A stretch of DNA of 64,000 nucleotides from Owenia fusiformis (Eukaryota; Annelida; Polychaeta; Sabellida; Oweniidae): positions 34,475,375-34,539,374 of the forward strand of contig CAIIXF020000005.1 in NCBI GenBank assembly GCA_903813345.2, read 5' to 3'. The translations under genes were made by a program, and so were the position numbers. The notes under the pieces are model-generated. The model saw nothing but the letters and a program-made list of their open reading frames with translations. It was not told the origin of the DNA and did no database searches. Of this stretch, positions 1,607 through 25,453 are shown one piece after another. Every line of letters starts with the position of its first letter. The first letter of the stretch is position 1.

Positions 1607-2153
1607 CTTTCAATGGTGATTTCTTTGTCTCTGGTACAGGAGGAACTGGGAGAGCGATACCCATTTTCTTAATATCTAGTTTATTTATCTTTCTAGTTGC
1701 GTCAGTAACTTGAGGTTTAATCCCTTTTCTTTCAGTGGGGATCTGAGGACCACCATTTTGAAAACGTTTTAATCTATCTTGTATTCCTTGGCCTATGTCT
1801 ATTCTGTTTTTTTCTAAATCTGTATCATCACTTGGTTGCGCAGGTAACGCTCTGTCGGGTTTAGTAGGGCTTGCTGGTAGTGGTGGGTTTGATGTTTTAC
1901 CCATATTGTTATTTTTTTCTCTATTACTAATAAATGGAATTGGAGGGGGTGAGTCTATTGAATTGAATGTCGGGGAATCTGGTGATCGAGCAACAGGGGG
2001 AGTATGTCTAGGTGCAGGAACAGCTGGAATTGTCCTTGGAATAGCTGGTACTGGCTTTGTTGGTTTCGCACTGTGAGGGGAAACAGACGTACTTTGGGGT
2101 GGAACTGACGGTAGTGGCCTATTTGGTAACTTGCTCTCCTGATTGAAGGTAGC
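1607..2153 (-). CDS. LCP2-like: SLP-76-like exon 12: long proline-rich segment
   Basis: A 547-nt exon, phase 0 to 1, about 182 residues, starting ATFNQESKLPNRPLPSVPP and ending at donor GTAAAT. It is rich in PxxP words (RPLPSVPP, KPTKPVPAIP, PPLPASPTKP, DRALPAQP, IALPVPPVP). A short charged, possibly helical stretch follows (GIQDRLKRFQNGG, TRKINKLDIKKMG). An SH2 domain would be expected in exons further left. Confidence 0.85.
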
Positions 2154-5100
2154 CTGAAAATACATTAACTAATTAAGTAATGATCAATTTACAGTGCTCA
2201 CCATAAATAAATGACACCTGGATTTGATGAAGTGAGGATTTCCCATGTTAAAAAGAAGAGAATATCTAAGAGGCTTACATCAGTGGATGAGAGTATACAA
2301 AGTGTAAAATATACAAAACTTAAGGGATATGTATTTAGACATTATTGGAAAGTATGAAGTCTCAAATCACCATGGTCAGAAAATGGTGATAGAAAATCCA
2401 GGTGTCATTTATTTTTGGTGAGCACTTTAATCTATGTTTAATATAGTTTATTACTGTCACATGCAACTTATATAAAATCCAATGAAAACATTTTTAAAAA
2501 CATTGCTTCCAGCCGCTGCCTGCTTATGAGGCAACATTTTAAGTACATGTATGGATAGTATTCAATTTCCAAAGTGAAATGACTTAATGCATCGTAAACA
2601 ATGATAAAGACCATGTATATATTGAGTTCATTATTTGTTCATTGTTTCTTTCCCTCTACTAAATGGAGACATCTTCCCCAAGGTTGATGTTTAGTCAATC
2701 AGTAGTACAGCATAATACAATAGTATCATAGGCGTAGCCAGGGGGTGACTGAAAGCTGGCTATGCCCCTTAGTATTATGATGCAGAAGAGCATGCACTCT
2801 AAATAACACAACCTATAATGCAATCATATACTGTATGAGCTAAAATCACTGTACCAAAATATAGCAATAATCTAAAATAATAAAGACATCTACTAAAATA
2901 CTCAACACACCTTAATACTGCTTGTAGGGCTTGGTATGGTAATATCCGGAGCTAAATAGTTTTCTGAATTTTTAAACCTACAAAAGCTATAGGAGGCCCT
3001 TTCAGGAGGGCCTCCTAATAAAGACATCTACTATAATACTCAACATACCTTAATACTGCTTGTAGGGCTTGGTATGGTAATATCTGGAGCTAAATAGTTT
3101 TCTGAAAAGAACAAAAAAGTTTAATCCAAATGCGTCTGTTGTCATGTCAAATGTATTGGGAGTCTTGAGCCCAAGTATTGTGAGAAATCAAATGACAAAA
3201 AAACGATTTCTCTAGAAATACAGGTGAAATCATGGGCTTGAAAGCCCATGGTGAAAGCAAGAGTCGGGACCAATGGTGCAAATTACAAGTATGAACCCCA
3301 ATACAATAGACTAGATGTGAATAAAAATAATCTTGATTTACTTCATTAAATATTCAAAATTCAAAGTGATGAATGGACAGACAGACATTCAGATGAATGG
3401 GTCTTTCTATAGGTCCACCATGTAAACCAAAAAAGTCCTTATGTGTATTCTCTTCTATTTTGGAGGGTAGAGATAACAAGTGAAATAACCCTCCAACAAG
3501 ATGTGCAGGTGCTTTGTGAAGATATTATCACATACTTATGCAAACTTATGATCTACAATAGCAAACTTATGGTCTACAACAGCAAACCTATGGTCTACAA
3601 TAGCAAACTTATGGTTTACAATAATGAGATACATTTTCCCTCTTTAAACACAATACATGTAAATATGCATAAATATTCAGAAAATTGAGACATATTCATA
3701 TATTTTAGATCATAATTTCATTGAATACTTTGTACCTAAAGATATAGTTGGACACTCAATCTTATCTAAGCTTCATTGATTGGTTCTTTCATTGTTTGAG
3801 AATAATTTTGAAGTTTGAAATCATTGCCTTTTAGACCTCCTCAAAAATTTGTTTTAAAACATAAGTACTTGATTCTCAGACAACTTTGTGAATAATGAGC
3901 CTCCATTAGCAGGTCAGATATTTAACATTACACTGTCACCTTTCAAATGGTATATTGGAACCTTGGGATAAACTGCGTCATTTATTTTACATTAATATGT
4001 AGAGTTTGACTTTGAAGCTTTCAATATTGCTCAACTTATAATACACTTTTTAAAATGACAACCATTTTGTTGGGGAATTGTTTGTAAACACTTGACCCGT
4101 AAATGTTACATTATGAACAAGCTATTTATCATGAGAAATTTAAATGTCAACATGTTACATGTACTCCATGTGAATGCTTAAATTGGCTAAATGCTGTACA
4201 TGGAGGATTTGCGGAAATAGCGTGCCAAATTAAATTTTCTAGCATTTCTCTACAATTTGAAATAAAACTTCATGTTTACTCTATAGATTGTCAATATTTT
4301 TTTTTTGAAATATGACCTCATCAATATTTTGTCCATGTTTGGTTAAAATGTTCAATCATGGTCATTGATCAAAGTGTATAAATGGCTTACCATCATCATC
4401 CTCTTCAGTGACAGATGGTTGGGCAGGCAAAGGTCTCACTACACCCACTGGCTGTGCACGGAGAGGCTTCGCAGGTGGGTCAAGACTTGTTCTTGGGGGT
4501 AAAGCTGGCCCGTCATCAAAATCCTCTGGGGGCGGAGGTGGCAAAGGCTTTCTTCGTGGTGGTTCCATTTTCGGTGGTATTTTTACTGTAAATATTTTTT
4601 CAATTTCTTTAAAAATGATATCATACATGTATGTCGGAATCACTCGTCCTCTGCAACCGACTAACCAATTTAATGATAAAATTAATTCTCATAAATTTTG
4701 GAAGATAGAGGATATACTTAATGTACAATAAAAGATCATATCCATTCGTACAATGTGCAAGACTTGATTATCCCAACTTTCACTTTTTCAATCATTACAA
4801 ACTACCTCAAACTCAGATGTATATTGCTAAGTCCATTAAATGACCATATATTTGTGCTACTTACATACAAGTGTTTAACTAAATATAACATTTATTAACC
4901 TTTATTACCACATAAAGGTATTAACAATATAGCCCCCAAGGGTGTTTAAAAAGTATAGTGGATTTTACAAGACAAGTTCGATTGGACATTGGTCTTGCAG
5001 CTCTAGTGCCTCCTCCCCCCCCCCCCCTTTACACCTGCCCTAACCCTAACACTAGATGAAAGAACTACAGTAAATAAAGATTTGGTTATGGATTTAATAT

Positions 5101-8100: not shown

Positions 8101-11100
8101 GATAATGGCAACTCCGCGGAGTAGCAAATCCCAATGAACAAAATATCAATTACCGAATTCCAATCAATTATACTCATTACTTTGGTTGAAAATGAAAAAA
8201 ATAGATTTTAGAATTGCGAATTCCTGCAAAGCAGCCATTTTCTATTTTCTGAGGTACAAATCTGAAAAATAATACCATAATTGTGATCTACTCCTAATTC
8301 CTTCAATTTGAGTATAATATAGCCATACTTTGAAGGGATCGAAAAATTATTGCGAAATCGTACATTAGACGGCCATTTTGAATTTTACGAGGCTCGAATC
8401 AGAAAAAAGATACAATATTTGCAATCTACTCTTAATTGCCTTTCATTTGAGTATAATAAAGCTATACTTCAGAAAGATCTAAAAATTAGCGAAAATTTCT
8501 GTTTTCCTGCCCCCCCATACATGGCCCCTGGGGGTCAGGATGAAAAACACGGAATGAATCTGAAATGGATAAATGTTGTGAATACACTACCAAAATTTCA
8601 AACAATAATATTAATTTCTTTGGTTTAGAATGAAAAATTTATGATTTTTGCGAAAAAGTCCCGTCATTTTTAAAGCGGCGGCCATCTTGAAAAATATACA
8701 TCTTTCCACTAAATATGAAGAAAATCTGTCAACTAGTATTTGAGTTATCTTCCGGACAGACGGACGGACTGACGGACTGACGGACGGACGGACGGACGGA
8801 CGGACGGATGGACGGACGGACGGATGGACGGAGGGCTTCACTATATCCCTAACGAACTTCGTTCGTTGGGATAATAATGTAAATTGCAGTATGGTGATCC
8901 AAAAATAAAATATTGTACTCCCACTTAAAAGTGTGATATTGTTTAAAAGCTCTATACACTAGCGTGCCTTCCCCAGCTGTAGTGTTTTTCATTCAGTGTA
9001 AATCGAAAGTTTCATCCCATAATAGTCACAAATGATGTAACAACTAACCCTACTATCACACCAAACTAGTTCTCACTACGTTCTCGAAAACGGGCTTAAA
9101 CTGTGCACGAACGGTTTTGACGTACTAAGAACCAACTAAGAACCGTTTGGGATCTGTTTACAAACTACTAGAACGAGTAGGTCCTCCACAACTTAGAGCA
9201 TGCTCAAAATTTTCTGGTGATCGTCAAAACGTTGCCGAATCGGTTTTAAACTGTGTGCGAACTGAATGAACGTAGCTACAACGTTCTACGGTCTGTTTAC
9301 GAACTTCACGGACTTTCCCGGACGGGGAATGTGATTTAGAATTTTGAATCGATTCAAAATTCGATGGCGACCATGCCGTTCTGTAATCAGGTCATGATGA
9401 CCTTCTAGACTAAGGGACGGTTTACACTACGTTGCACTCCGACTTGGTGCGACCTGAACGAAGTGCGAATGAGATGGACGTATTGAAGACTGTTTATGAA
9501 CGAAGTAGCTAATTATTTTAGACATATATCCCGACCGCAGCCAGATTGAGCCCGTTTTACAACGTTTTCGTAGGACTGGCAAGAACGGGCAAGAACTAGT
9601 TTGGTGTGATAGGGGGGTAAGGTGAGTACCAAGGTGATGGAGATTCAATGATTCCTCAAAGCACCAAGAACAAGAATTCTAAAATTAACCTAAATATCTG
9701 TATTTTGTCACATCAAGTAACACAAATAGTTAATCCATATATACATGTACAATGTTCAACAGGATCACTTGTCTTGAAATTGAGTGAGTAATATATAGAA
9801 TTATGGAGTAAAATCTGCCACAAGTTTCAGTGGCTATATAATGGTATTATGGCTCATTTGACGGCACATTCAGAGCTAAATTAATCCCTCCTTCTGTTCA
9901 ACGACCAGGTGTAGTATGGCAAGTGATTTTAGACATGAAAGATGAGGTTATGAAAGAAATAATGTTCCACTTGCCATGTTATATGCACTCCTCTACCACC
10001 AATCACACATTAGTATGGTAGTTTGTAAGCACTCTCCAGCTTTGAACTCTTATACAAATGTAGGTTTTAATCCTTTGGTTAAAAAAAAGACAGGAGACTT
10101 ACTTGAACCTGGAGGAGCTTCAACAGGAGCGACATAGTCATCATCTTCACTTTCTTCACTAGCTGCTGTTGGTTCTATCACTACAATATCAAGATGTTCT
10201 TTTTATAGTTTATAAGATTTATAATTTATGCATCCAGCAACAATAGATACCAGGTATAAGAAAGGCAAACGAACTTCAACATTTCATTATTACATTAATT
10301 TTATTTACGATTTACCCTTTGGACAAGCCCTTGTATCTTCTTCATTGTTTATCTAGTTAGAGATAGAGAAAATAGGTGGGGGATGGGGACTGGGTTGGGA
10401 CCTGTTCCAAGATGTTCTTAAGTTTAATAAGGGAGGGTAAGCTCTGCCTTTTTCAAGAACGTGTAATAGTTTGACCCCCAAGGTGATTACTATCCCCCTC
10501 TCAATTGGTTCTTCCAGTAACCCAATCACCATACATCTCCTTTCATTTTGTATCTTATACGAAATCCAGCAAAGAAATACCATGAATGGTACGACTAATC
10601 ACAAGATGACCATAGTTTTAAATGTTCACTTATAAGTTCTCTTAAAAAATGTGTAGCTTGACCTCCCTATTATCAGATTATGTTCATTCTGATACTCGTC
10701 AAATATACTTTCTTACAATATAGTGTGTTCCACAGGATTTTTTCTCAAGTGGGTGCACAATTCTCATTTTCCCAATTCTGACCAAAATTGGTCGAAAAAT
10801 GCTAATTTTTCATGATTTCCCTCATTTTTAAGTGGGTGCAAATGGATTTTCAGGTGGGTGCAAGCCTGTTTTCCAAATCTCAGGTGGGTTCTGCGCCCAC
10901 TTGCTTTAATACTGGAGAGATCAATGCAATATGTTGCTTTAAAAGTTGAATGAATATACATGTACATGAAGTATACATACATGTGGTTCTTTTTGATGGG
11001 AGTGTTATATCTGGGTTTTCATAATCATCTTCATCTTCTTCATCTTCACCCATAGTAGGTATTACTGAAAAGAAAAAAAAAAAAATTTACCACTACATGT

Positions 11101-14100
11101 ATCATAATTATTATCCAAATCTAAACACCTTCTCATAGAAACATTTTTTCACGGGTGTTTAAACACGAATATACCATGAGCACATGCTTTGAGGATCCGC
11201 GTTGTTTGAACCTACCACCAAGGTCACTTATACATTAAGCCTCGTTACACAGTTATGATACCACCGAGCAAGCTCATTGCATCATCGGGTCTGCTTTACC
11301 CCCGTGTTTTTATTTAACATGAAATACTTCATAAGAAAATATGTTAGGATATGTATCCTAATATTAAGTTACTAATGTCAAAAGTTTTTGAAATGTCTCA
11401 ATCATAATTTGGCAATTAAATTCATGAGATAGGTAATAATATACAATGCATTTTTCAGAAATTACTGATCATGGTCAACTGGACTGTAAATACTTATGGA
11501 CAAGGTGTTCAAATTTCCTCAAAATCCTGAAACCAGTAAATGCAAAAATCTAGAAATGTGAACACCTCTGACAGTGAGGGATTAATCTGGAATATATGTT
11601 ACAATAAAGTTAAAATCTAAACAAAATAATACAAAATATCCACAGAATGAACACTTACATTGTGACTGGTTATTGTTTGTATGTGTATCTGATTTAGGGG
11701 GCGTAGATTCATCTGCTGGTAGGTCATAGATTTCCTGAAAACAAAATGTGAAATACAGCTTGTGTTAAAAAGAAAAACATGTACATGTACAGATGCAAAC
11801 TGATTAATATGAAAAATTATGTTTACAATTATCTAAGAAAGTAGCCAGCTTTTGCCAAGGGGGACCGAGGCTCACTTTTCAGAAAATTCCAGGGGTTCAC
11901 ATTTGACAAATTTGGCCTGAAATCGAAAAGTGCTGAGAATGGTGAAAAACAGCATGACTTCAAAAGAACTTTTGGCCAATGCTCGAACCCCCGTACCCCT
12001 CCTGGCTACAGGCCTGATATATGTCTGTCATCCTTGGGGAGCATATTACTCTTTTATCATGAGGATAATACATAATGATTTCAACTATGCATTTTCATTC
12101 CAAATGATTATTAGGTTATTCTCACCAAAATTATCTATTCAAAATAGTTACATTTAATTAGAATTTAGATGGTTTAGATTAAACCTGAATAATAACTAAT
12201 ACCCCAACTTTATTTAACACTTTAAACAACTATTTGCAATACCTCTGGGCCGTCATCATCATCAAATTCATCAGAGCCCCAATCATCATGTTCTTCCTCA
12301 TGTTCATGATGTGTCACTACTGAAATAGATTGATTCAAAAATGTGAACACAAGGGGTCTCATTTTGTTTCTACTTCCAGTGTAACCAAGGGAACACATAT
12401 ATATGTGTACATTAAACCTGAAACAAACTCTCACACTGAATATTCACCCAGCTAATCCAAAAATTTAAACTATTCAAAACTAGAAAAACAGCAACTCCAC
12501 GGAGTAGCAAATCCCACCGAACAAAACATATTATGCTTATTATAGCTAGTGTAGATGTTGAAATGTTTGTGCACTTTGTGATAGAAGCATGAAATTTGGC
12601 ACAAAGTTAGTTTATACCATTGTGAACTAGGCATCATCATATAAAATTTGAACCAAATCCTCTTGAACAGAGCTACTGTGTCCCTAGGCATAATCATATA
12701 ACATTTCAACCAAATCGGTTCACTGGTATTTGAGTTATCAAAGATTACGTTTTTTACGAAAAATTGCCGCCATTTTGAAATTAAGCGGCCATCTTAAAAA
12801 AATTTTGTCGAACCTAGCTACTGTGTCCCTAAGCATCATCATATACAATTTGAACCAAATCCCTTCACTGGTATTTGAGTTATCAAAGATTACATATTTT
12901 TACGAAAAATGGCCGCCATTTTGAAATTAAGTGGCCATCTTGAAAATTTCTATAAAATTTGAACCAAATCCGTCAACGGGTATTGGAGTAATCGCCCGGA
13001 CACATGGACAAACGAACGAACGAACGGACGGACGGACGAACGGACGGACGGCTTCTCTATATTTCCCTCGAACTTCGTTCGGTGGGATAATAAATTGTAC
13101 TGTTAAAGAACCTTCTATATGTCAATTGTAAAAAGTCCTCAAAACATGGAAAAAATAATAATTGTGACAGGCAGTCAAACAAGATTTTAGCAAAATTAAA
13201 GAACTTGAAATTTGTTTTCAGTATTTGTTTTCAGTATTTACCTGCATGATAATCTCTGGGAGGAACACCTGGAATTGGTTTATCTTTCTTGCCACCAAAT
13301 AAAGAGCTGAAATGATAGAACATGGCTGTATGTAGATCAAATGGTAATAGGATCATAAAGGGAAGTTTATAGTCTCTGTTTATTTTCTGGAAATGTGATA
13401 TTTAACCCTATTTGTGATGGTCTACAGAAAACCTATATTTTTCGATTTAAAACTCTATCAATTATTGCAATACAGTAAGATCCGTCTAAGTAGAACACCT
13501 TTGGTACCTCTAAAACTGTTTCACTTGACAATGTGAGGTGTTCCACTTCAAGAGGTTTGGTCATGGGACTCATGTGTTCCCACTTACAGAGGTGTTCCAG
13601 TACTAGATTTGTTTCATTATACATGTTTCACTGTTTTTCCATCTTCCATTTGCAATGTGGTTATTATGACATTAAATCATGGTTATAACTTTTTCAGCAA
13701 CTGAAACCTTGAGAATCAAGATGAATGTCTAAGTGTCAGGTTGACTTGAGGTTGGGTTAACTCAAGCACCTAAAGGCCTTGAAAAATCACTTGAATTCAT
13801 CTAGGGATGTGTATATGAAAGACATTCCAGGAAAGTTAAAAAAATACAATACATGTACTTACGATTTTTTGTTGACTGTTTTGTTAATATCAGCAACATA
13901 TTTGAGTATTTTCCTGAAACGAAAATGGTTCAATAAAAAAATGATTGACAGTCTACTCTAGTTTATTCCTTACATTTTGAGAGCAGTTGATCTAGTAGAT
14001 AGGGGGGGGGGTAGTTGGTAATAGTATAATGCATATAGTTTATTTGAACATTTACAAGATGTCCAACTCATTAAAATCAATCAGGTTTGTCAAGACAGGA

Positions 14101-17100
14101 ACAGATGTATAGAGCTATCAAATCTTAATGTGATAATGTGATGCATTTTGTTTAGGAGACATAACCAGAAAAACATCAAAATACATGTGGCCCATTCGTT
14201 AGACAAGCCACAAAGAACACTACAAAAGTTTATAAATATATCATATGTTTGTATTTTTCCATATAACAAGCTTTTGTGGTCCTTTGCCTGCTTATTTCTG
14301 CAAAAGCAAATTGACATTTTTTAAATTAATTGAATTGCAAAAGAGTACAACTTTAGGGAATTTTACACCAATTAAATGTACTTACTTTCGTCTACTAACT
14401 GGTACACCAGACATAGTCATTAAGTGAATTTCTTGGAGACCCTGGAATTTAAAACAAGACGCTTTACTATGAAACCCAGCATGTACAGATGTTGCATTCA
14501 ATTTTACATTACAGAATCAAGATATGGTACAAAATATAAGAAACTCAAAAATATGAGGTTTAAGGGGCTTCAAATATAAGGTACAAATGTAAATGTTTTC
14601 TTATATAATATACATGTACATGGAGATTATTCTATATAAGGCTTAGGATATTGGGATTATCCCAAGGCCAATACAATACAGTATATTTCTGTCCAAAATT
14701 TAATTTTCAAATTTTTGCAAGGTGGGCAGATATGATATAATATAGCTTTATCCTGCCAGGATGTATTTATCTTTATCCCATACTTGGATGTGTTACAGGT
14801 ACATAAAGCAGGTTTGTAAAAACTTATATTTTCATCAGCGGGCAGATATAGCTTAACATCACGCTCCGAGCGGGCAGATATAGTATATCTGCCCGCTACG
14901 TCATAAATCCCAATATCCTGAACCTCGTATAGGATAATCTCTACATATCCTGATTCCTATTCCTGCCCACTATTGAAAATACAACATTTTGCTAAATAAT
15001 AGCAGATACTAAGAGATACTACTTTACAAAAGCTAATCATGTTGAAATAAATTTTTGAATCTTTACTTCATGAATTATTTAAACAAATCTTCAAAAAAGC
15101 TAGAAATCAATAAATATTACAAGAACACAAATGTGTACAAAATGTCCCCACCAATGGGTGATCCCATCAAATGGTTATCCTGAAAATGAGTAGACAAGAC
15201 TTTACCAACACAATTTTAATTGATCCGTCACACAGTTAACTAGAAAACATGTAAACAAGATTTTAGGATGGAAAATCCAAAATGGCTGCCTTGACATTTA
15301 CCCAGAATGTCAAAAAACTAATCTGTTCCTAGATTTTCATACTGAGAATCATCCCTGAAAATATGACATTGATCTACCAAATGGTTCACCTGAAAACGCG
15401 TAGACAAGACTTTACAGACAAGATTTTAGGACAGAAAATCCAAAATGGCTGCCATGACATTTACACAGAATGCCAAAAACACTAATCAGATGTAGATTTT
15501 CACACTAAGAATCATCCCTGAAAATTTGAAATTGATCTACCAAATGGTTCACCTAAAAACGTGTAGACAAGACTTTACAGGCAAGATTTTAAGACGGAAA
15601 ATCCAAAATGGCTGCCTTGACATTTATCCAGAATGCCAAAAAACTAATCAGATCTAGATTTTCATACTAAGAATCATCCCTAAAAATTTGAAATTGATCT
15701 ACAGAACGGTTCACCTGGAAATGCATAGACAAGACTTTACAGACAAGATTTTAGGACAGAAAATCCAAAATGGCTGCCTTGACATTTGCCCAGAATGCCA
15801 AAAAACTAATCAGTTCTACATTTTCATACTAAGAATCATCTCTGAAAATTTTAAATTGATCTACCAAACGGTTCACCTGAAAATGCGTAGATAAGACTTT
15901 ACAGACAAGATTTTAGGACGGAAAATCCAAAATGGCTGCCTTGACATTTACCCAGAATGCCAAAAAACAAATCAGATCTAGATTTTTATACTAAAAATCA
16001 TCCCTGAAAATTTGAAATTGATCCACCAAACGGTTCACCTGAAAACATGTAGACAAGACTTCACAGACAAGATTTTAGGACGGAAAAATCCAAAATGGCC
16101 GACAATAAAAAAGTGATTATGTGTTTTTGCTGATTTCTTCTTACAAAATTATCACATATTACTACTGTTAACAATAACATAGGCTTTTACAACAAAGTAG
16201 ATCTGAAATTATTTATAAAGCTACTAAATAGTTAAAGTATGAAAACTCAAAAACACCATTCAATATGATACAAAGTATTATCGTGCGCTAACTTTTCTTA
16301 AGACATTCAAAATGGCTGACATGACTGAGCTAACAGGTCCAAAACCTAATCAGATCTAGAATGAAGTGAGCTGAACAAGATGTTAAAGTTTTAAAAGCAA
16401 CTGTGAAGCCGTTTTTCTTAAAGTTTGCAGACAAGGATTTTAGCATTTGACTTCAAAATGGCCGACAGGAAGTAGGTATCGAGTTAAAAATTTTTCATCC
16501 ACATCTGTATGCACTCATAAGTTATCCCTGAAAATTTGAAGGTGATATCTGTAGCAGTTTTGGAGAAAACTCCCGGACGTACGGACAGACGGACGGACAG
16601 ACGGACGGACGGACGGACGTACGGACGGACAGACGGACGCGCCTAGGCCGACAATATGGCCCCACACTATGTGGTGGGGACATAAAAAGCATTTTTCTTA
16701 CTTAATTTCCAAAACATTAAATTAAGCTGTGTGCTAAATCCTTTGACAGATGTAAAATGATTTATCAATTGGGAAACAGGAAGATACATCAAATGACACG
16801 TAAATGTAAAGTTTGGTAAATAACATTATCATTACAAACATGATTTCAGTAGATAAGGAAATATTTGCTGTTTTCCAAAATTGTGATTTATATGATAATT
16901 ACCATAGATGTTTACTCAGATTCTAACTAGGCTAGCTAAAAATAAACAGTTTTCTTGTTTTGGTAGGCAAAAAGATTTACCACATGTTTAAGTATCAAGG
17001 TTTCATGCACTCTGAAAAATGTATTTCAATTTACAAATGACATATATGACATACAATCGTGTGCTGTTCCTGTCATTAAAGATTTGAAAATTAAGTGATT

Positions 17101-20100
17101 ATTTAACTTAAATGCCCCATATAAAGATTAAACCACTTTTGCTTGTATTGTAGTCTTACCCAATATCATCAAAATGCTGATCTTTATCTCTTAACGTTTT
17201 TGAATATCCTAACATCAAATCTAATCCCTCTAACTTGCCTTTTGATACTTATTAATCTTTGCAAATATGTGAGTTAAGAAAATGTGTACGTCCCTTGTAT
17301 ACAGGTTCTTGACTACTTTTGCCTGATATTCAGAAAAACAGAAGTACAAATTACAAATAACTCTAGAGGGAATCATTCCTTGGTCCAGTGATCTCTCACA
17401 TATGCTATAAATCAATGAATCAAACGTATTTCAAATTCTTACTGCTTAAATACAAACCATACCTACATTCCAAGAAACAAGAAAAAAATTCACCTTGCAA
17501 GCAAAATATACTCCCTTTCAAAACTTTTATCAGATGCATTCATCTCAGAGGTTTTGTGACCTCTTGTGCTGTTTTCTAGTTATTTTACTTAATAGTGAGC
17601 TATTTTTGTGACATTTTAAAATTGTATTTATATATTAAGGTAACTGAACCCCTTAAACAATAATAATTTATGGATTTAATTACACATATCATAAATATAG
17701 GACCTGATATTTATCAGGTAGGTACCCTATAGTTAACAATACTGAGAATTTGTTTACCCATGAATGGTATGTGACTTATAACAGATAAGATAGCAAAATT
17801 GTTTATTTAACACTAGAGGAAGTATCATTCAAATGCTATCATAAAATCATTAATTACTTTTGGTAATTCAGAGAAAAAAATTAGTCAGCTATTTAGTAAT
17901 TCAGGTAAAAAGAATTAATCAAATATTTCGTAATTCAGAGAGCAATAAGATAACTGTTTAAATTCAACTCATAATTTAGCATGCAAGTTTATGTAAGTAA
18001 CCTACTTTCTCATTAGAGCCTCTCTCTCTGGCGGATCGAGAAGCTGACAAGGGGCGATCAAGTCAAAATAGAAAATGTTGAAAATTTTGAAAATTCAAGG
18101 CCCATTTTTTAATAATTTAGCCTAGAATTAAAGAATTAGGTCCAACAGGCCAAGAAATGCCCCTAAAGGCCCACTAATTGAGGCTCTACTAAATGTTTTC
18201 TGGCCCCATGCTATAGAGGCAGGCATTAAAGCCCTTCCCCTCCCCTTGGATCCGCCAGTGCCTCTTACCTATGGCATATTTATGATATCTCTGATCATAC
18301 AATAGAATATATGCCATGGTGGTGAACTGGTGGTATAACGGTTAGTTTGATTTATTAGCAAACAGATGTGTAATAAAAACTGCTTTATAACTGTATTGTA
18401 CACAATGACTTCTTCATTTTTTAACATGTAACTTGAAAAAACAGGCTTGTCAGAATCTGGAATTAATTTGAGGGAAAATATTGTGTCAGAATCTGGTTGC
18501 TTTACCAGCAAATACATGAGTTTAATGTATTGTACTTATTTACTCAAATATAACTTTACAGGTTTGCAAATTAGTTTTGACATTTTGACCTTGCTATGTA
18601 TTGCTAACTGCCCTTATATTGAACACTCACTCCCAATACAACACAGGCAACCAAATAACAAAAGGGAGGGGGGTAGGAGGGGTATGAGGGGGTAATCAAG
18701 GACTTGTCACGAGACTTTGCAAGAAATCTGCTCATGTAATGATATGGAAATCTGGCCCCATTAAGAACAATTGAGTATCAAGACCATAAAACAGTCTTAT
18801 GATATAAGGAGGGGGTGTTTAAAGTCAATTCTAGTTCCTTAGCCTATATCGCAGTTAGTATCATCCAGCTTTTTTAAAGTTATAATTTTGTCAAAAAAGA
18901 AACAAACCAAATGGCTAGATTGCGATTTAAGAGTGAAATGAATTTTGATGCCCATGGTATTATTTATAAGCTAGTTAAAATTGTGTGTATCAGGAGTAAA
19001 GTAGTTTACTATGCTTACCAGTAAAGCTTGTCCATTGATGTTCTTTTCTCCGAATGATTTAACACAATCCTCGAATCCAATCTGAAACAAATAGATGTAA
19101 TATCTAAGAAAAAACTTTTACATATGAAATGTACCGTTACTTCTTTTGTTTAGACTGCAGAAGAAATGTATTCAGAGTTATTTTGATCCGTATGTGTGTC
19201 ATGTTACAAAAAAGTTTTCTTTTAAAGTCTGTTTTTTACATCCTGTCATCATTATTCATTATGTCTCAATTACCCCACAAAATGATTCCACATAATACTA
19301 TTTAAAGTGTGTTTTACTTCAAGGTGCTTCTCCTCCAATTTTACATTGAGAAATTCTGTATTTTCCTTGTTGTTTTCATTCTACTTTACTTAATTATATT
19401 GAATGAGAATGCATTCATTGTTCATTGTTTTTTTCCCTTATTTACGATACATGTACAATCCCAGTCAATATATTCATTTTACAGGAGATGTACATGTACT
19501 GGTTTATGTAACTGTCCTTAATGAATTCATGTATTTAATTACATGTAAAGTATTTTCAAAATAAAACATGGAAATATATTCCATAAAACAATAACAGTTT
19601 GAGTACAATTTCAACATTCTAAAATCACACACTAAAAATGATAAAATTAGGAAAAAATCATGTAGAAAAGTAGTTTGAAGGGAATTAAGTTTAAAAAAAT
19701 GAAGTTGAAAATAATTGTAAGGGATAATTGACAAATTAGAAATAATGAGCTAAGGGCAATGATTCACTCCCGGCAAAATATTTTTACATATTTTTTCCTT
19801 GTATCAGGTGTATTTATCTCATCACATGTCAAAATTACCTTAAAATCAAGTTATATAAAATTCCGACACATCTTACCTATTAGCCTATATTTCATATAAT
19901 TTAATCGAGCTTACTTTAAAACATTCCATTCGAATGCATGTTTTTACAAGGGTTGAATGGTACAGAGTACATATTATAAGTTTTATTTCCTGGAAGTCAA
20001 ATCCAATTAAAATAAATTTCACAACTAATTTTATTGCATTCAAAATTGTAAACAGGAAGAGCAAAAAAGGGGAAGATGACATTTCCAACATTCATATATT

Positions 20101-23100
20101 CTTTCACATCTTATATCAACATATAATTTGTTTTGGTCAAAACTTTGATCAACAAGGCATTAAAATGTCACCACCTGCCATTAATTACAGTATATAATAT
20201 ATACTATAATAGTATATCTTACTGACATGATTAATATAGTGGTTAAGCGCCCCCCGATTTTGAAAAAATCGGGGGGCGCTTATAGGCATCGATGTTTAGT
20301 ATGAATTTCACCCAAACTTCGCATATATATAGATAAACTCATGATCTAGTCAAATCGGCATACCTGGTAAATATCCGACTTATGGTTTTCATAAAAGAAA
20401 CGACAATATTTTTAGCTCAAAACTGCCACATGTCCGCCATTTCGTGATTCCATCATGTCTAATATCATTTCTATATGACGTCACACCAATAAGACGAAAT
20501 ACATGACTACAGTATCCATTACAGTATTCCTGAATTCTGATCGCAAAAGGTCAATTGAAGGGTTCTGTGAACATGGTGAAGATCTTCCTAAATGACACAC
20601 AACAGAAAAATAAGTATGTGCATGCAAGATGTATTGGGAAGTTGAAGGATCATATATTGATGACATGGAAGTACTAAAATTCTAGTCATCAAGAAAATGG
20701 TCATTACAAACATTTAATGGTATGATTTTGTAAAATAGACTTTGTGAGATATGCCTGTTTTTTGACAATATATCCAACTGACCCAAATTTGCCAAATTAA
20801 TTCTAAAAAGGTCAAATGTCAGAGAATCAACAAATCAAATAGTATGATCTATGTACTGTCAATTTCAGTTTTAGAATACTGCAAATATCGTCAACCAAAT
20901 CATTGCCAAATATCTTAAAACTCATTTTACATTTAAAAAGATTTCTGTTGAGGGTGATGTTTTCAGTGCCAAATTCACAAATGATATTAGCAATATAAGT
21001 CTTTAATCATACTCATAAGGGGTGGCATACAAATACCAACAGTAGTGGAAAAACAAAATTAATATTGTGAAAATATTGATTTTTAACTCTGGAAATGTCT
21101 GTAAATCAACATTTGACCTTTCATTATGTGAAGAAAGAGAGTAAAACAATTACAAAACTAACTTTGTTTTTCCACAAGTTCTTGAACACCATCCCCCAAG
21201 TCAATAAAGATGAATTATTTTTGAGAACACGGTTAAGATTGTTAAAATTATTGGACCATGTGCCCTGGGTGCAGTCTAGTTATAATTATAACTAGTTATA
21301 AACTTAATACCCTCTGCCTCGTATAGAATCCTCTAAATACTTATTCCCCTCCCTCAATGAAAGAGAAATGGAATACAGTTTATTGTCATTCAAAGATTTC
21401 TTGAAATATGGTGCTGCCTCATGAAATACAGACTTTTTGAGGCATAATATTTTTTATGTTTCACTTGAATCATTGAATATTTTAGCACATCTGTACTTAA
21501 TAATTAATTCATTATTACATTGTTATAGTGTATATGACTAGTACAGTTCTGAAATGTAACCTAAAACCAGACTATAATTTGACATTTCCTATTATAGAGA
21601 GAACAATATAACATATCCTGGATTAATAAAAATGTTATTAAATATGAATCATCCAAAGTCATATGTAAAATTGTATATACAAGGGGTGATCCAAAAGTCT
21701 TGGACGCCCTGCTCTAATTTTGTTGGTTTTTGATAAAATAACTTTAAACTTTCCAATAATAAAGACCAACAACCTAACTACTTTGTATATTAATTTCATG
21801 GAGAAATGATATATTTTATGTAGTTTTCTAAATAGTTTTTAATATAGGGACCCTGCCACCCGGAACGGTTTTCGCACATGGCAACTTTCAGCCTTAAATG
21901 TTACTGCCAGATCACTTGATTCACAAATCTCGACCACTATCTTTCTTTGAATTTTGAATGTTAAACCATGTTAGTTTACTTCCTTTGTTACTAGGCAACC
22001 AATTTATTGTGTTTTAGTTATAATGTCACATATGACAATGGCCATATATGTCAAATTCTAAGAAAATGACTTCAGACAAGCAACCCTCATTCTGGTATCA
22101 TTTTTGCTGCAAGATGGCTGCTGAAATGCAGAACATGAAAGAAATCAAAGTGGAACAAAGAATACTACAAGATATTTTCACTATTATTGACCTTGAGTAG
22201 CTACCATATGCACGATACGGTCTAGACATGGCTCCGTGTGACTTTCTTCCTTTTCTCCAGAAATAATGAGGGTTGAAAGAATTTTTTTTATTACTCATTG
22301 TATGAGGTATAGAGTGGCACTCCAACAGCATTTGTATCACATAAACAATGGCAGTTTCATAAATGTCTTCAATTCATTGGTAAAGCGGTATGAAAAATGT
22401 GTTCAAATTCGTGGAAAATATGTTGAAAAGTAGGTCTTAATATGTGAAGATGATGATGGCAGATGACACTCAGACTGAAAATCGGAAATTCTCATATCAT
22501 GACTGGTGTTAGGTTGTGCACCCTGCACCTAAAGTATTTGCCATATTATAACAGTTGTGATGTGATTTGCTATATTTAAATACCGTTCCGGGTGGCAGGG
22601 AGCCGATATTAAAAAATGTTTAGAAAAGTAGCTAAAACATATTATTTTATGTTGAAACTTATACGCAAAGTTGTTAAGATGTTGATCTTTACTATCTGAA
22701 AGTTTCATGTAATTATATTAGAAAATAGCAAAGTTAGAGCGAGGCGTCCAAGACTTTTGGATCACCCTTCGTATTTATGTGTGTGTTATTTTATTTTATT
22801 TGTTTATTTTAGCTACCATTTCTGAAGTGAATATAACATTTGGGTTTGCTGAAGTTGCTTGTTACCCATATACTCAGAGCAGATAGAGCAGATAGAGCAG
22901 ATTCTAATTTATCGTAAGAAAATGATGGTGCCTTGCCATTGCATTCTGGTTATTGCTATATACTATGTAATGTTATGCTATGTCATGCGATGGAGGATTA
23001 AATCGTGCCTAAGAAAGTATCTATTTATTAACATTTTCCTCTTTGCATTATAGCAAGAAAAGCCTCATTTATTGGCAGCGCTTAATTTTACATTGAATTA

Positions 23101-25294
23101 TTTGAGAGAATATTGCACTTGCTCTTCCTGGTCACATTCAGGCTTTGTGATTAAATGATAAGTTAATCTTTGAAAAGTGTGTACACAAGATAATATAAAA
23201 CTGTCTACTTGTGCAACAATGATGAGTTTGTCTTTTGATTGGTCCTAACACTTTATTAACCATTTCTCCAGTCAGTATCACAAAATATCTTCTCTCTACA
23301 AGAGATATAGATAACAACAGCATAAAATAGAGGACATTTTCAATTAATATATTTCTACATATTGAGTTTGTGGTTGGTGGGATATAGTTTGTCCAAAATG
23401 CTCTGATACATATGTATAATTGAGCAGAACATTCCATAATGTCATATGATTTCATGAAAGTGCATGAAAGGTGTTTTAGAAAATCAAATCAAAAAAGATT
23501 CTAAAAATGCTTAAAAATGATTTTTTTCTAGTGTTATTCCAGTAATTACTGGAAAGGAAATAACGAAATTTACAATCAGATTGGTGATAATTATCAAATA
23601 TGGTAGATACCTTTATCAAAAGCAAGAGCAAGCATGATTTTTAAGCTGGCTTAAGGGTTACACAAGGATAGATAGGATAAAACACAGCACAGATTAAAAA
23701 ATAAGGCAAGCTAGGTTTAACTGCATCTACTTGTAGATGTATTGCTTCAGGAAGTGAAGATGTTTATAAAAAACACCTTGAAGCCATAAGAAATCGTTGT
23801 ATTCGTTGCAGTCATCAGATATTTCTTGAACTAGTGAAAGGTGTTCACTTGATACAGGTTTTACTGTACTGCAGTAAGTGGAATATGTGCTGAGAATTGG
23901 TGTTCACTAGACACAGGTGTTCACAAGACACAGGTGTTCACTAGTGTTGTCGCGATTAATCGATACATCGCAATATACATCGCCAAAGCTGATTCTGGCG
24001 ATGCATTGATGTCTGAAACAAAACATCATTGTTTTTAAAAAAATTATGGATGTACCAGAGTACTATTATTTATTTGTTGCATTCGGTATTTTAGTACATT
24101 AGTGTTCAGTATGTCAGTACAATTTTCTCAGACTTTTTCTCGATGTGCATCGCGATGTGTATCGATGTTTACTCCTGAAAATTGCCAATGCATCGATGAA
24201 TGATGATGGCACATTGCGACAACACTAGTGTTCACTAGAGAAAAGTGTTCACTAGATGTAGACGTTTTACTACCCTTTGCATTCGCTCAACTTCACTTCT
24301 TAAAAGAGAGCTTCGTCTTCACTCTTTCATTTTACAATAAATCTCTGATCTCACCGAGCCAATCAGAGTTCATCGTCGAAATATGGACGACTTTCTATAT
24401 GGTCATTTCCTCTGACATCCCCGCATAGTTAATGAGCATGTATTTAGCGCATGTTCCTTCCACTTTGCTGATTAGTTGAGAAAGGATCAGCGTGGTAGAT
24501 TTGAAATTATTTATTACCCGGGCTGTCACAGGCACCAATCTTCGGGGCGGGGCTGCTAAACTGAAATATAGTCTATACTAGGCAGAGTGTAGTTTATAAC
24601 TAGACTCTGCACGCAGGGTAATGTTTTATTGCACTCATTAGTTATACTCTTTATTTATCTTGAAAGCATTTGAAGCAAGAATATGTTACAATTCAACTAT
24701 GTTTTTTTCATACTAAGAATTTGAATTATAAAATTTGCGTTGGAGAAACGCAAGCGGTTGAATTTTTCGTGTCCCCTTTGAAAAATTTGTGCGGCTAACG
24801 CAAGCCATCTAAGAAATTACATAAAAATTCTCATTACAAGATCGATCTGCCTAATTTGTCGTTTGATGCACGGATGTCTATCTCGAAAACACATCCTTGT
24901 TTGATGCAACTAGTGAGACTATAGCATTGAGAAGTTTGTCGCCATCCCTGAATGCCCCCCTTTATTACACAATATTCATAAACGTAACACTGCAGGTGAA
25001 GTTTACAAAGTCAGGTCTAATTTATAATTAGGTCTACACCGTTTATCACTTGCTTACTTTGTTTGTGAATTAAAGCTAAATAGACTTCATCTAGGCTAAA
25101 AGTTATAAGCTAGTCTAGCCTAAAATCATTTAAAAATTAGCCTATGGCATATAAATAACCAAAATTCTAAAAGTGAAAGTGAAATTAGACCCATCATCAT
25201 GTAAAGAAAAAGTTACCTCTTTCAACCAGTCTGAGACATTCCTTGTATTCCATCTAAGTACATCTGAATACTTCGGGGTGGTCTTTAGCGCCAT
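1607..25294 (-). CDS. LCP2-like: SLP-76/BLNK-family adaptor gene, partial (12 coding exons in window; C-terminus off left edge)
   Basis: Scaffold adaptors of this family are phosphorylated by Syk/Tec-type kinases and assemble Vav, Nck, PLC-gamma and Grb2-type proteins beneath the plasma membrane. Coding exons, 5' to 3': 25294-25217, 19081-19019, 14441-14386, 13913-13863, 13306-13242, 12319-12243, 11734-11659, 11064-10981, 10180-10103, 4585-4391, one of 3101-3049 or 2963-2911, then 2153-1607. All junctions use GT-AG and all phases agree, giving 474 residues plus one base. The start MALKTTPKY resembles SLP-76 MALRNVPF. Residues about 10-80 form a SAM domain. An acidic stretch follows with Tyr133, 170, 199 and 277 in YxxP-like settings, then proline-rich segments. 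The SH2 domain typical of the family is not in the window. One exon of 3n length could be missed between 10103 and 4585. Family assignment is by remembered alignment to SLP-76 and BLNK. Confidence 0.85.
2154..2910. other. Intron between exons 12 and 11 of SLP-76-like gene
   Basis: AT-rich intron. It contains a small GGCGTAGCCAGG...CTGGCTATGCC foldback (2731-2770) of the family also seen at 6505-6610, 11843-12014 and 50541-50695. No other gene seen. Confidence 0.6.
2911..2963 (-). CDS. LCP2-like: SLP-76-like exon 11, 3' copy of duplicated exon
   Basis: This copy differs from 3049-3101 at one synonymous base (CCG versus CCA for the Pro of YLAP) and encodes the same 18 residues. Splice sites remain (TTCAG acceptor, GTGTGT donor), but the pyrimidine tract is poorer and the donor weaker. 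It may be an alternative exon or a recent spare copy. Confidence 0.65.
2964..3048 (-). other. 85-nt intron with GC-rich hairpin between duplicated exons
   Basis: Separates the two copies of exon 11. It holds TAGGAGGCCCT-TTC-AGGAGGGCCTCCTA (about 2990-3017), an 11-bp stem. Such a short, structured spacer would sterically hinder splicing of one copy to the other. Confidence 0.6.
3049..3101 (-). CDS. LCP2-like: SLP-76-like exon 11, 5' copy (ENYLAP), duplicated and probably mutually exclusive
   Basis: A 53-nt exon, phase 1 to 0, encoding ENYLAPDITIPSPTSSIK with Tyr277 in a YLAP motif. It has a strong pyrimidine tract (TTTTTTGTTCTTTTCAG) and a GTATGT donor. It joins exon 10 (phase 1) to exon 12 (phase 0). 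A second copy lies 85 nt downstream. Because 53 is not a multiple of three, using both copies would break the frame. Confidence 0.8.
3541..3622. repeat. 21-bp minisatellite, four copies
   Basis: Four copies of CAAACTTATGGTCTACAATAG in the intron between exons 11 and 10. The rest of 3102-4390 is AT-rich intron with nothing recognised. Confidence 0.8.
4391..4585 (-). CDS. LCP2-like: SLP-76-like exon 10: proline-rich SH3-ligand segment
   Basis: A 195-nt symmetric phase 1-1 exon of 65 residues. It contains PPRRKPLPPPPPEDFDDGPA, then PALPPRT, PPAKPLRAQP and VRPLPAQP, several R/K-x-x-P-x-x-P type SH3 ligands, and ends in an EEDDD acidic tail. No exact Gads-type RSTKP motif is present. Confidence 0.85.
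6505..6612. mobile_element. GGGGCGTAGCCAG MITE
   Basis: Inverted ends AGGGGCGTAGCCAGCTTTC and CCCCTCCTGGCTACGCCT, 106 bp. Family members occur at 2731-2770, 11843-12014 and 50541-50695. Confidence 0.7.
8104..8876. mobile_element. GGAC-tract element, copy 1
   Basis: Begins GGCAACTCCGCGGAGTAGCAAATCCCAATGAAC and ends AACTTCGTTCGTTGGGATAATAA. The interior has GCGGCCATCTTGAAAA words and a (GGAC)n tract at 8755-8830. A second copy lies at 12483-13093. Confidence 0.7.
8755..8830. repeat. (GGAC)n microsatellite
   Basis: About 18 imperfect GGAC/TGAC/GGAT units inside the element at 8104-8876. Its open frame (PSVRPSVRPS) is an artefact. Confidence 0.9.
9048..9617. mobile_element. 570-bp MITE with CCCTATCACACCAAACTAG termini
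   Basis: CCCTACTATCACACCAAACTAGTTCT at 9048 and its inverse AACTAGTTTGGTGTGATAGGG at 9594-9614. Inside are repeated AACGGTTTTGACG- and CGAACTG-type words. It lies in intron 9 of the SLP-76-like gene. Confidence 0.8.
10103..10180 (-). CDS. LCP2-like: SLP-76-like exon 9: DYVAP motif
   Basis: A 78-nt symmetric phase 1-1 exon. It encodes EESEDDDYVAPVEAPPGS around Tyr199. DYVAPVE closely matches BLNK DYVVPVE. The acceptor ends in TAG and the donor is GTAAGT. Skipping this exon would keep the frame. Confidence 0.85.
10735..10912. mobile_element. AAGTGGGTGCA repeat element
   Basis: CTCAAGTGGGTGCACAATTC (10744) pairs with GCGCCCACTTGCTTTAAT (10896) as inverted ends, with AGGTGGGTGCAAG repeats inside. 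Lies in intron 8. Confidence 0.55.
10981..11064 (-). CDS. LCP2-like: SLP-76-like exon 8: DYENP motif
   Basis: An 84-nt symmetric phase 1-1 exon. It encodes GEDEEDEDDYENPDITLPS around Tyr170. DYENP is identical to the BLNK motif SDYENPDE. The DITLPS tail is echoed by DITIPS in the duplicated exon at 2911-3101, so the two exons may share ancestry. Donor GTATGT. Confidence 0.85.
11659..11734 (-). CDS. LCP2-like: SLP-76-like exon 7: YDLP motif
   Basis: A 76-nt exon, phase 0 to 1, encoding EIYDLPADESTPP and a polar tail. Tyr133 in EIYDLP has the acidic-Y-x-x-P form of an SH2-binding site after phosphorylation, as in SLP-76 and BLNK. The partner is inferred, not shown. Confidence 0.85.
11843..12014. 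mobile_element. GTAGCCAG MITE copy in intron 6
   Basis: Ends AGTAGCCAGCTTTTGCCAAG and CCCCTCCTGGCTACAGGCCT, inverted; same family as 6505-6612. Confidence 0.6.
12243..12319 (-). CDS. LCP2-like: SLP-76-like exon 6: acidic W-x-D/E-F segment
   Basis: A 77-nt exon, phase 1 to 0, encoding VVTHHEHEEEHDDWGSDEF followed by DDDDGPE. The DDWGSDEFDDD stretch parallels SLP-76 GGWSSFEEDDY and BLNK EEQWSDDFDSDY, a conserved acidic patch just upstream of the phosphotyrosine motifs. Confidence 0.85.
12483..13093. mobile_element. GGAC-tract element, copy 2
   Basis: Begins AGCAACTCCACGGAGTAGCAAATCCCACCGAAC and ends CTCGAACTTCGTTCGGTGGGATAATAA. It has (GAAC)n/(GGAC)n at 13010-13050. A duplicated internal unit (ACTGGTATTTGAGTTATCAA) occurs at 12722 and 12868. 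Confidence 0.7.
13242..13306 (-). CDS. LCP2-like: SLP-76-like exon 5: basic/proline linker with PPRDY
   Basis: A 65-nt exon, phase 2 to 1. It encodes SLFGGKKDKPIPGVPPRDYH. The VPPRDY word resembles BLNK SVPRRDY immediately before its acidic region, which supports the family call. Tyr102 is present but lacks a YxxP context. Confidence 0.8.
13863..13913 (-). CDS. LCP2-like: SLP-76-like exon 4: last SAM helix
   Basis: A 51-nt exon, phase 2-2, encoding KILKYVADINKTVNKK plus partial codons. The DINK word aligns with SLP-76 LSKLSQEINKNEER, just after the SAM fold. Donor GTAAGT. Confidence 0.8.
14386..14441 (-). CDS. LCP2-like: SLP-76-like exon 3: end of SAM domain
   Basis: A 56-nt exon, phase 0 to 2, encoding GLQEIHLMTMSGVPVSRR with a GTAAGT donor. 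It supplies the L..L...G/V....RRKIL segment that closes a SAM fold and aligns with SLP-76 LTENDIQKFPKLRVP. Confidence 0.8.
14600..14945. mobile_element. GGGCAGATATA palindromic element
   Basis: Outer inverted words TAAGGCTTAGGATATTGGGATT and AATCCCAATATCCTGAACCTC enclose multiple GCGGGCAGATATA and TATATCTGCCCGC copies. Similar in style to the palindrome at 40309-40499. Confidence 0.65.
15138..16684. mobile_element. 1.55-kb element with TGTCCCCACC termini and about 180-bp internal tandem repeats
   Basis: The left end AATGTCCCCACC (15141) and right end GGTGGGGACAT (16673) are inverted. Inside are five to six units of about 180 bp, each with TTTAGGACGGAAAATCCAAA ATGGCTGCC and CCCAGAATGCCAAAAAACTA, then a (GGAC)n tract (16573-16640). 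Related units occur at 1-1480. Confidence 0.75.
18017..18262. mobile_element. CTGGCGGATC MITE
   Basis: CCTCTCTCTCTGGCGGATCGAG and GGATCCGCCAGTGCCTCT are inverted ends. Related to the GTGGCGGATCTGG start at 46125. Confidence 0.55.
19019..19081 (-). CDS. LCP2-like: SLP-76-like exon 2: middle of SAM domain
   Basis: A 63-nt, phase 0-0 exon encoding 21 residues (IGFEDCVKSF...INGQALL) between an AG acceptor and a GTAAGC donor. The segment GFEDC...F..INGQALL is typical SAM helix 2-4 sequence and aligns with SLP-76 YKDCEKAVKKYHIDGARFL. Introns of 6.1 and 4.6 kb flank it. Confidence 0.85.
20236..20276. repeat. Perfect GC-rich hairpin
   Basis: TAAGCGCCCCCCGATTTT and AAAATCGGGGGGCGCTTA are an 18-bp perfect stem with a tiny loop, in AT-rich intron. 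It may be the end of a decayed element. Confidence 0.75.
21681..22775 (+). mobile_element. Degenerate mariner-family transposon with about 185-bp inverted repeats
   Basis: Outer ends GGTGATCCAAAAGTCTTGGA (21685) and its inverse near 22750-22770 are mariner-like. Inversion continues inward to GCCACCCGGAACGGT (21854) and ACCGTTCCGGGTGGC (22583). Inside, plus-strand fragments read LDMAPCDFLPFLQK (22219-22260), matching the DLAPCDFFLFPKLK block of mariner transposase, and VKRYEKCVQIRGKYVEK (about 22380-22430), its usual C-terminus. Frameshifts and stops show it is dead. Confidence 0.8.
23943..24236. mobile_element. hAT-like MITE
   Basis: Perfect 15-bp termini CACTAGTGTTGTCGC and GCGACAACACTAGTG flank 294 bp containing ATCGATACATCGCAAT and related inverted words. 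The TGTTGTCGCGATTAATCGAT end is typical of hAT-family MITEs. Confidence 0.75.
25217..25294 (-). CDS. LCP2-like: SLP-76-like exon 1: start and first part of SAM domain
   Basis: Encodes 26 residues beginning MALKTTPKYSDVLRW and ending DWLKE, before a GTAACT donor in phase 0. The pattern of a W followed by a short DWL helix is the start of a SAM domain. An ATG two codons upstream (25300) and one further up are also in frame. MALK is preferred because SLP-76 starts the same way. Confidence 0.85.
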
Positions 25295-25453
25295 AATCAT
25301 GTATTTGTCACTAACAAGACAGCAGAAAGTTTTGAAGTTTTTTAATTTTACTTCCTCATTCAAAAACGTGATGCATCCTGGGTATTATGCGCGAAACCAG
25401 AACGAGGCTGTCACAACATTTGAAAGTTAGAAAAAGTTTGATTTTCAAAGTTT
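25295..25453. promoter_or_regulatory. Candidate bidirectional promoter between SLP-76-like and iRhom genes
   Basis: Only about 160 bp separates the two start codons, so the transcripts must start within or overlap this stretch unless there are upstream noncoding exons. It contains GCATCCTGGGTATTATGCGC near 25374-25393, which resembles half of a ZNF143/Staf-type site, and no obvious TATA box. Promoter identity is inferred from layout. Confidence 0.5.

Follow-up and report, generated by a model that had tools for sequence, protein, structure and literature searches.

A predicted SLP-76/BLNK-type adaptor gene with SAM and SH2 domains in the annelid Owenia fusiformis

The locus and the predicted gene

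The window analysed here is a stretch of 64,000 nucleotides of the genome of Owenia fusiformis (C5:34475375-34539374). We read the left flank of the window over 20 kb, and our genome-wide searches covered the 498 Mb assembly (an assembly size of 505.8 Mb is reported, PMC9977687). The minus strand of the window carries an SLP-76/BLNK-type gene which extends past the left window edge. We described it by a predicted spliced chain of 16 exons, 12 of which lie within the window (from 25300 to 1607) and four in the left flank. All 15 introns are bounded by GT and AG, all phases are compatible, and the joined exons (2160 nt) are translated into 719 amino acids with a single stop, at the end. The exons were picked by eye with the GT-AG ends as a guide, and the weight of the model lies in the unbroken frame and in the domains it encodes; individual boundaries may be misplaced, and an additional exon might lie in the intron of 5.7 kb that separates exons 12 and 13. 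Judged from this prediction, the locus looks like one complete gene related to SLP-76 and BLNK, whose product has an N-terminal SAM domain, a linker of 530 residues and a C-terminal SH2 domain.

All exons are given here in window positions on the minus strand; negative positions are numbered with the base to the left of window base 1 counted as 0. Exon 1 (25217-25300; phase 0) contains the start codon and encodes an N-terminal tail, reading MALKTTPKYSDVLRW from residue 3 on, as well as the start of the SAM domain, which continues in exon 2 (19019-19081) and exon 3 (14386-14441) and ends in exon 4 (13863-13913). Exon 5 (13242-13306) encodes PIPGVPPRDY, where a PxxxPR motif immediately precedes the tyrosine Y104, and exon 6 (12243-12319) an acidic stretch. 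There follow three YxxP tyrosines, in EIYDLP (Y135; exon 7, 11659-11734), DDYENP (Y172; exon 8, 10981-11064) and DDYVAPVE (Y201; exon 9, 10103-10180). The proline-rich region starts in exon 10 (4391-4585), which contains a second PxxxPR motif (PALPPR), and occupies exon 12 (1607-2153) and exon 13 (-4139 to -4527), while the short exon 11 (3049-3101; 53 nt) carries another YxxP tyrosine, ENYLAP (Y279). The SH2 domain is spread over exon 14 (-4957 to -5040), exon 15 (-5535 to -5687; with its FLVR motif) and exon 16 (-6185 to -6289), which also contains the stop. In genome coordinates, exons 13-16 correspond to C5:34469085-34471235 and the three SH2 exons to C5:34469085-34470417.

Exon 11 sits in a tandem duplication of 89 nt (2880-2968 and 3018-3106, 97% identical), so that the exon is found a second time at 2911-2963 on the same strand, flanked by AG and GT like the first copy and coding for identical amino acids. 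Each copy has 53 nt, which means that using both would shift the frame. The two copies may be mutually exclusive exons, the product of a very recent duplication, or an error of the assembly. Taken alone, exon 12 matched no Pfam family, and the N-terminal 294 residues of the protein matched no family in NCBIfam.

The surroundings of the gene contain several other open reading frames. Two similar ones on the minus strand (37247-37864 and 51547-52281) contain repeats of the type SYKAPSYNT and a C-terminal chitin-binding CBM_14 domain (Pfam, 2.1e-5 and 4.2e-5). Two further similar frames of 101 amino acids on this strand (47536-47841 and 54161-54466), each beside a YQFIIS/VHNITIS minisatellite, have no Pfam match at 0.01. 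Together these two pairs suggest a duplicated block. A rhomboid-family protein is encoded on the plus strand at 57732-58706 in two open frames (Pfam, 6.7e-9 and 1.9e-12), and an open minisatellite frame with units of the type HSHIEFVFTWTFPYYIYIHLAIPILNLYS lies at 62109-62801 on the minus strand. To the left of the gene, open reading frames of membrane-transporter type, resembling monocarboxylate transporters by eye, are found in the stretch L002 at 1741-2814 (minus strand), 847-1362 and 4203-4865.

The two ends of the protein and the linker

The original prediction, made from the window, had described an SLP-76-like N-terminus with a SAM domain, and this is confirmed by exons 1-4 (25300-13863, minus strand). 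SAM_1 is detected at residues 17-76 (1.8e-10, above the Pfam cut-off). When the first 106 residues are compared to PDB chains, the best match is LCP2, that is SLP-76 (2eap, 8.6e-7), and polyhomeotic is a close second (1.1e-6). What separates the two is the tail preceding the SAM domain: MALKTTPKYSDVLRW is aligned to MALRNVPFRSEVLGW of LCP2 with 8 identical residues out of 15, counted by hand.

The SH2 domain had been expected further to the left, and it is found just outside the window edge, at residues 615-697 (Pfam, 1.7e-12, profile positions 1-77 of 77, above the cut-off). The phosphotyrosine-binding arginine of the FLVR motif is retained. Among the best 60 of 177 matches to PDB chains (E <= 0.1), BLNK comes first (2eo6, 1.1e-10); the second is a RASA1 chain with two SH2 domains (3.4e-10), whose best single domain reaches 25.2 bits against 44.7 for BLNK, and it is followed by PLC-gamma, SHC and ABL. 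The phmmer scores are 44.7 bits for BLNK, 42.0 for CLNK, 32.9 for SHC1, 32.7 for ABL1 and 31.4 for LCP2. Since the N-terminus points to LCP2 and the SH2 domain to BLNK, the two ends of the protein indicate independently the same small family.

We aligned 22 SH2 sequences: four from the output of the PDB search, four from this genome (the present domain and three others named by eye) and 14 others. In this alignment the worm domain has two loop insertions in common with BLNK, LCP2 and CLNK: a BC loop with two additional residues and PY[TV]L behind it, and a second loop longer by four to five residues (FALGSEKLNEEQF versus YALGKKKNGEEYF). None of the 18 other rows has the two insertions at full length; of the first, PIK3R1 shows a single residue, SOCS7_G000 has part of the second, and the ABL_G000 row ends before the second. 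In the best tree, for which sparsely filled columns were dropped, the worm sequence stands beside SHC1 (89/72) and adjoins the clade of LCP2, BLNK and CLNK (100/98). The worm domain and these three form a single clade in 4% of the bootstrap trees. If the four rows are constrained to form one clade, the log-likelihood falls by 0.60 units (AU p 0.366), which means that a single clade is not rejected.

The position beside SHC1 speaks for another reading, in which a different SH2 adaptor gained a SAM domain in this lineage and resembles SLP-76 and BLNK by domain order alone. Such a convergence would also fit a SAM domain nearly as close to polyhomeotic as to LCP2, and it must be kept in mind that SH2 and SAM are common domains and that YxxP motifs are short. 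We nevertheless consider it highly improbable: the two ends lead independently to one family, the N-terminus doing so with its pre-SAM tail included, both SH2 loop insertions are of similar length to those of the family, and the succession of SAM domain, tyrosine motifs, proline-rich region and SH2 domain equals the order described for SLP-76 (PMC5431462). The identity proposed in the original prediction, namely an invertebrate SAM/SH2 adaptor of the SLP-76/BLNK/CLNK family, is thus supported by the domains and by the PDB matches; the SH2 domain is present and the best matches do not belong to an unrelated family.

Between its two ends, the protein displays the other features of the family: besides the C-terminal SH2 domain of family type, there is an acidic region with several YxxP motifs and a proline-rich region with motifs of SH3 ligands. 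The protein contains 11 tyrosines, five of them within the linker (YHAV, YDLP, YENP, YVAP and YLAP). Four of these five are YxxP sites, a number reached by 833 of 100,000 shuffled linkers. Three sites follow the narrower pattern [DEN]YxxP, which 63 of 100,000 shuffles attain, for a pattern picked after the sites had been seen. The motifs VPPRDY, DYENP and DYVAPVE, on which a likeness to BLNK had been based, are all found in the spliced frame (exons 5, 8 and 9); EIYDLP in exon 7 and ENYLAP in exon 11 come in addition. Motifs resembling the first three are carried by human BLNK, to which the worm protein is closer in this respect. The five Syk sites of BLNK are described as canonical YxxP (PMC9994718).

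Proline makes up 113 of the 530 residues of the linker. The pattern [RK]xxPxxP has 16 matches in the protein, 15 of them in the linker, where PxxPx[KR] occurs seven times. The two PxxxPR motifs of the linker fit the consensus reported to be bound by the SH3 domains of CIN85 in SLP65 (PMC10923291, PMC10786037); by estimate, two is about the chance expectation for so proline-rich a linker. The DYEPPP site for Itk is absent from all 719 residues. RxxK, the docking pattern of Gads type in the proline-rich region of SLP-76, does not occur in the linker either, the sole RxxK of the protein beginning at residue 66, within the SAM domain.

Copy number and candidate partner genes

Searching the genome with the SH2 domain gave seven matches, three in the gene itself and four weaker ones elsewhere; with the N-terminal 213 residues, nine matches out of nine fall within the gene. 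We read the four other SH2 matches as BCAR3-like, ABL, RASA1-like and CSK, and rejected them as paralogs. This includes C6:815680 and C10:27011278, which are BCAR3-like and RASA1-like by eye, neither apparently having the BC-loop insertion. Thus no second gene of the SLP-76/BLNK/CLNK family was detected by genome searches that work on single exons and report the best candidates, and which a diverged paralog could escape. The SH2 domain of our gene, divided over three exons, is not among the hits listed by the genome-wide Pfam search for SH2 and was found by reading the flank. From these searches, the gene is apparently the sole member of the family in the genome.

This bears on the possibility that the gene is an orthologue of SLP-76 alone, the split of SLP-76 and BLNK predating the parting of protostomes and deuterostomes and a BLNK-type gene having been lost here. 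The SAM domain and the N-terminal tail, which match LCP2, speak in its favour. We hold it to be unlikely, as the SH2 domain scores higher against BLNK (44.7 bits) and CLNK (42.0 bits) than against LCP2 (31.4 bits) and a second gene of the family was not found in the genome.

Among the other results of the genome searches, an Antennapedia query gave 24 matches, including a Hox cluster at C1:17.97-18.47 Mb. Two homeobox matches at its Post2 end (C1:17970454-17970630 and C1:17970805-17970981) are 351 bp apart and 58 and 59% identical to Antp. By reading, we assigned to the cluster a pair of Lox2/Lox4 type and a gene of Post2 type, and a gene of Post1 type far from it, at 56.85 Mb of this contig. 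Behind one homeodomain of the cluster is the peptide KLTGP, which we take to be a mark of Lox5. As read, the Hox set marks a lophotrochozoan. For the COX1 family, the genome gave no match. Owenia fusiformis is described as having 12 chromosomes, with 11 Hox genes on chromosome 1 and Post1 apart from the cluster (PMC9977687).

We then looked in the same genome for the genes whose products work with SLP-76 and BLNK. A kinase of the Syk family is represented by three kinase exons (C1:53041327-53042569), 51-64% identical to human SYK, and an SH2 exon lies 14 kb upstream of them. In the underlying search with the kinase domain, which gave 43 matches, 11 longer and less identical rows (32-53%) rank above the first Syk-family exon (64%). 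With the pair of SH2 domains of Syk as the query, two hits were obtained, read by us as exons of CSK and ABL. When the joined Syk-family pieces are compared to PDB chains (best 60 of 473 sequences), the top row is a chain of 678 residues titled EGFR, with two matched stretches summing to 356 bits, which we take to be two kinase domains; SYK and ZAP-70 follow with 262-256 bits, against 195 for TYK2. By single kinase domain, SYK and ZAP-70 are thus the best matches of these predicted exons.

SH2 exons of PLC-gamma are found at C3:9318039-9318526, with PLC-gamma-1 as the best PDB match (6.4e-34). A search for the BTK motif gave two matches. The better one, at C12:33011638, has no hit of the Pfam SH2 search nearby; the other, at C2:3926816 (6.5e-4, above the cut-off), is adjacent to SH3 exons, with SH2 hits at C2:3919453-3923488, and this locus is a probable Tec kinase gene. 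The SH3 exon of the latter is present there in three near-identical tandem copies (FVIALYDYQG[AE]ADGDLSITK; about 2381-3035 of L018, the stretch near C2:3926816, reverse strand). Finally, an SH3 domain of the CIN85/CD2AP type at C11:30652704 matches SH3KBP1 best (2.9e-22), then GRB2 (8.7e-19) and CD2AP (3.3e-18), and a second SH3 hit lies 21 kb downstream. The partner set is known here from exons, and the joint presence of its members in one cell and their binding are putative.

Proposed mechanism, origin and known relatives

In the T and B cells of vertebrates, signals from antigen are relayed by SLP-76 and BLNK. According to the reports consulted, Zap70 or Syk phosphorylates their N-terminal tyrosines, to which Vav, Tec kinases and PLC-gamma then bind, and their proline-rich motifs bind SH3 proteins (PMC5431462, PMC9994718); the SAM domain of human SLP-76 is reported to self-associate (PMC3795252), and co-expression of human SLP-76 with a Syk-family kinase and an ITAM adaptor in Drosophila S2 cells is reported as well (PMC5500614). 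As these parts recur in the worm protein in unchanged order and the partner genes are present, we infer that it works in the same way. A surface receptor, on an innate immune cell or on another cell, would activate the Syk-family kinase, which would phosphorylate the YxxP tyrosines of the acidic linker. The phosphotyrosines would recruit SH2 proteins, chiefly PLC-gamma and the Tec kinase, and the activation of PLC-gamma would lead to calcium release, as judged from vertebrate SLP-76 and BLNK and from the partner genes of this genome. By analogy with human SLP-76, self-association of the SAM domain would cluster the adaptor. The PxxxPR and [RK]xxPxxP motifs would bind SH3 proteins, for instance a CIN85-like one, while the C-terminal SH2 domain would tether the complex to a phosphorylated protein, either a receptor or a membrane protein. 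With a probability of roughly 80%, we conclude that the gene encodes an adaptor of the SLP-76/BLNK/CLNK family, apparently the only one of this lophotrochozoan, and that the passage from Syk through the YxxP sites to PLC-gamma and Tec is its most likely mechanism.

The same chemistry might serve a non-immune pathway only, for example calcium signalling in integrin function, phagocytosis or egg activation, with no link to immunity. This is a serious possibility, though short of an even chance. It concerns the cell type and not the mechanism, and nothing counts against it directly. In its favour, the transcript of a BLNK-like protein of a sea star is reported from mature eggs (PMC11593052), whereas the authors of an oyster study list a protein named lymphocyte cytosolic protein 2 among those of the immune response (PMC4531390). 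By analogy, the cells expressing the adaptor in the worm may be immune or reproductive, the latter being suggested by the sea star egg transcript (PMC11593052).

The gene had been proposed to be an ancestral form that existed before SLP-76 and BLNK were separated. The architecture is best read in this way, while in the SH2 tree the worm sequence falls beside SHC1, a single family clade not being rejected; moreover the gene is a living protostome descendant and not itself the ancestor. We regard a pre-split form of the family with a SAM domain as supported, though not proven, by the predicted protein. No SAM domain is known in BLNK. The simplest reading of its presence in the worm, the sea star, amphioxus and vertebrate SLP-76 is that the SAM domain is old and disappeared on the way to BLNK. 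Against this reading, one further loss is required by the sea squirt protein, for which the absence of a SAM domain is reported (PMC5431462). None of the 47 WW matches listed genome-wide lies in the worm gene, which fits a gain of the WW domain in amphioxus; the predicted gene thus suggests that the SAM domain is old and that the WW domain was an amphioxus gain. The amphioxus study remarks that the SAM domain did not arise earlier than amphioxus; both the worm gene and the protein of the sea star contradict this (PMC5431462, PMC11593052).

It can be proposed, tentatively and with considerable doubt, that the entire preformed module by which vertebrate B cells are primed, a scaffold of SLP-76/BLNK type that is pre-clustered by CIN85, acted on by Syk and linked through a Tec kinase to PLC-gamma, was complete in the ancestor of protostomes and deuterostomes, with a SAM domain on the scaffold, and that vertebrate lymphocytes inherited it whole; the scaffold would then have split into SLP-76, which kept the SAM domain, and BLNK, which lost it and gained a lipid-binding N-terminus. 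More generally, the basic design of the adaptor is probably older than vertebrate T and B cells. An apparently complete protostome gene, in which an N-terminus of SLP-76 type is joined to a BLNK-like SH2 domain and YxxP motifs, occurs in a genome that also encodes a large part of the partners known from vertebrates. Given the Syk-family, PLC-gamma, CIN85-like and probable Tec genes beside it, the scaffold and the majority of these partners would be traced to the bilaterian common ancestor. Owenia, with a published profile of its life cycle (PMC9977687), would allow the ancestral function to be studied in the absence of antigen receptors.

The presence of the family in invertebrates is already published for amphioxus and sea star, and the worm gene is a further member. 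Sequences of sea urchin and sea squirt are compared in the amphioxus slp76 study (PMC5431462), a lamprey BLNK is in print (PMC4850452), and lymphocyte cytosolic protein 2 is named in proteome papers on oyster and abalone (PMC4531390, PMC5713207). We found no protostome gene of the family analysed as such in the literature covered, which took in few subscription journals. Like vertebrate SLP-76, the worm protein has an N-terminal SAM domain preceded by a similar tail, tyrosine motifs, a proline-rich region and a C-terminal SH2 domain; unlike SLP-76, it has neither DYEPPP nor a Gads-type site in its linker, and its SH2 domain is nearer to that of BLNK. With vertebrate BLNK (SLP-65) it has in common an SH2 domain for which BLNK is the best PDB match, the YxxP sites and the PxxxPR pattern of CIN85-binding motifs, and it differs by its SAM domain, where a leucine zipper or a lipid-binding stretch is described at the N-terminus of BLNK (PMC4850452, PMC7016142). 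Amphioxus slp76 (Branchiostoma belcheri) is likewise an invertebrate protein with a SAM domain, a proline-rich region and an SH2 domain, but it is reported to have a WW domain beside the SAM domain and the DYEPPP site, which it shares with human SLP-76 (PMC5431462); the worm protein has no DYEPPP, and no WW match among the 47 listed falls in its gene. Finally, the BLNK-like protein of the sea star Patiria miniata (XP_038070561), likened here by its description, combines SAM and SH2 domains in one protein of at least 759 residues and comes from a deuterostome (PMC11593052).
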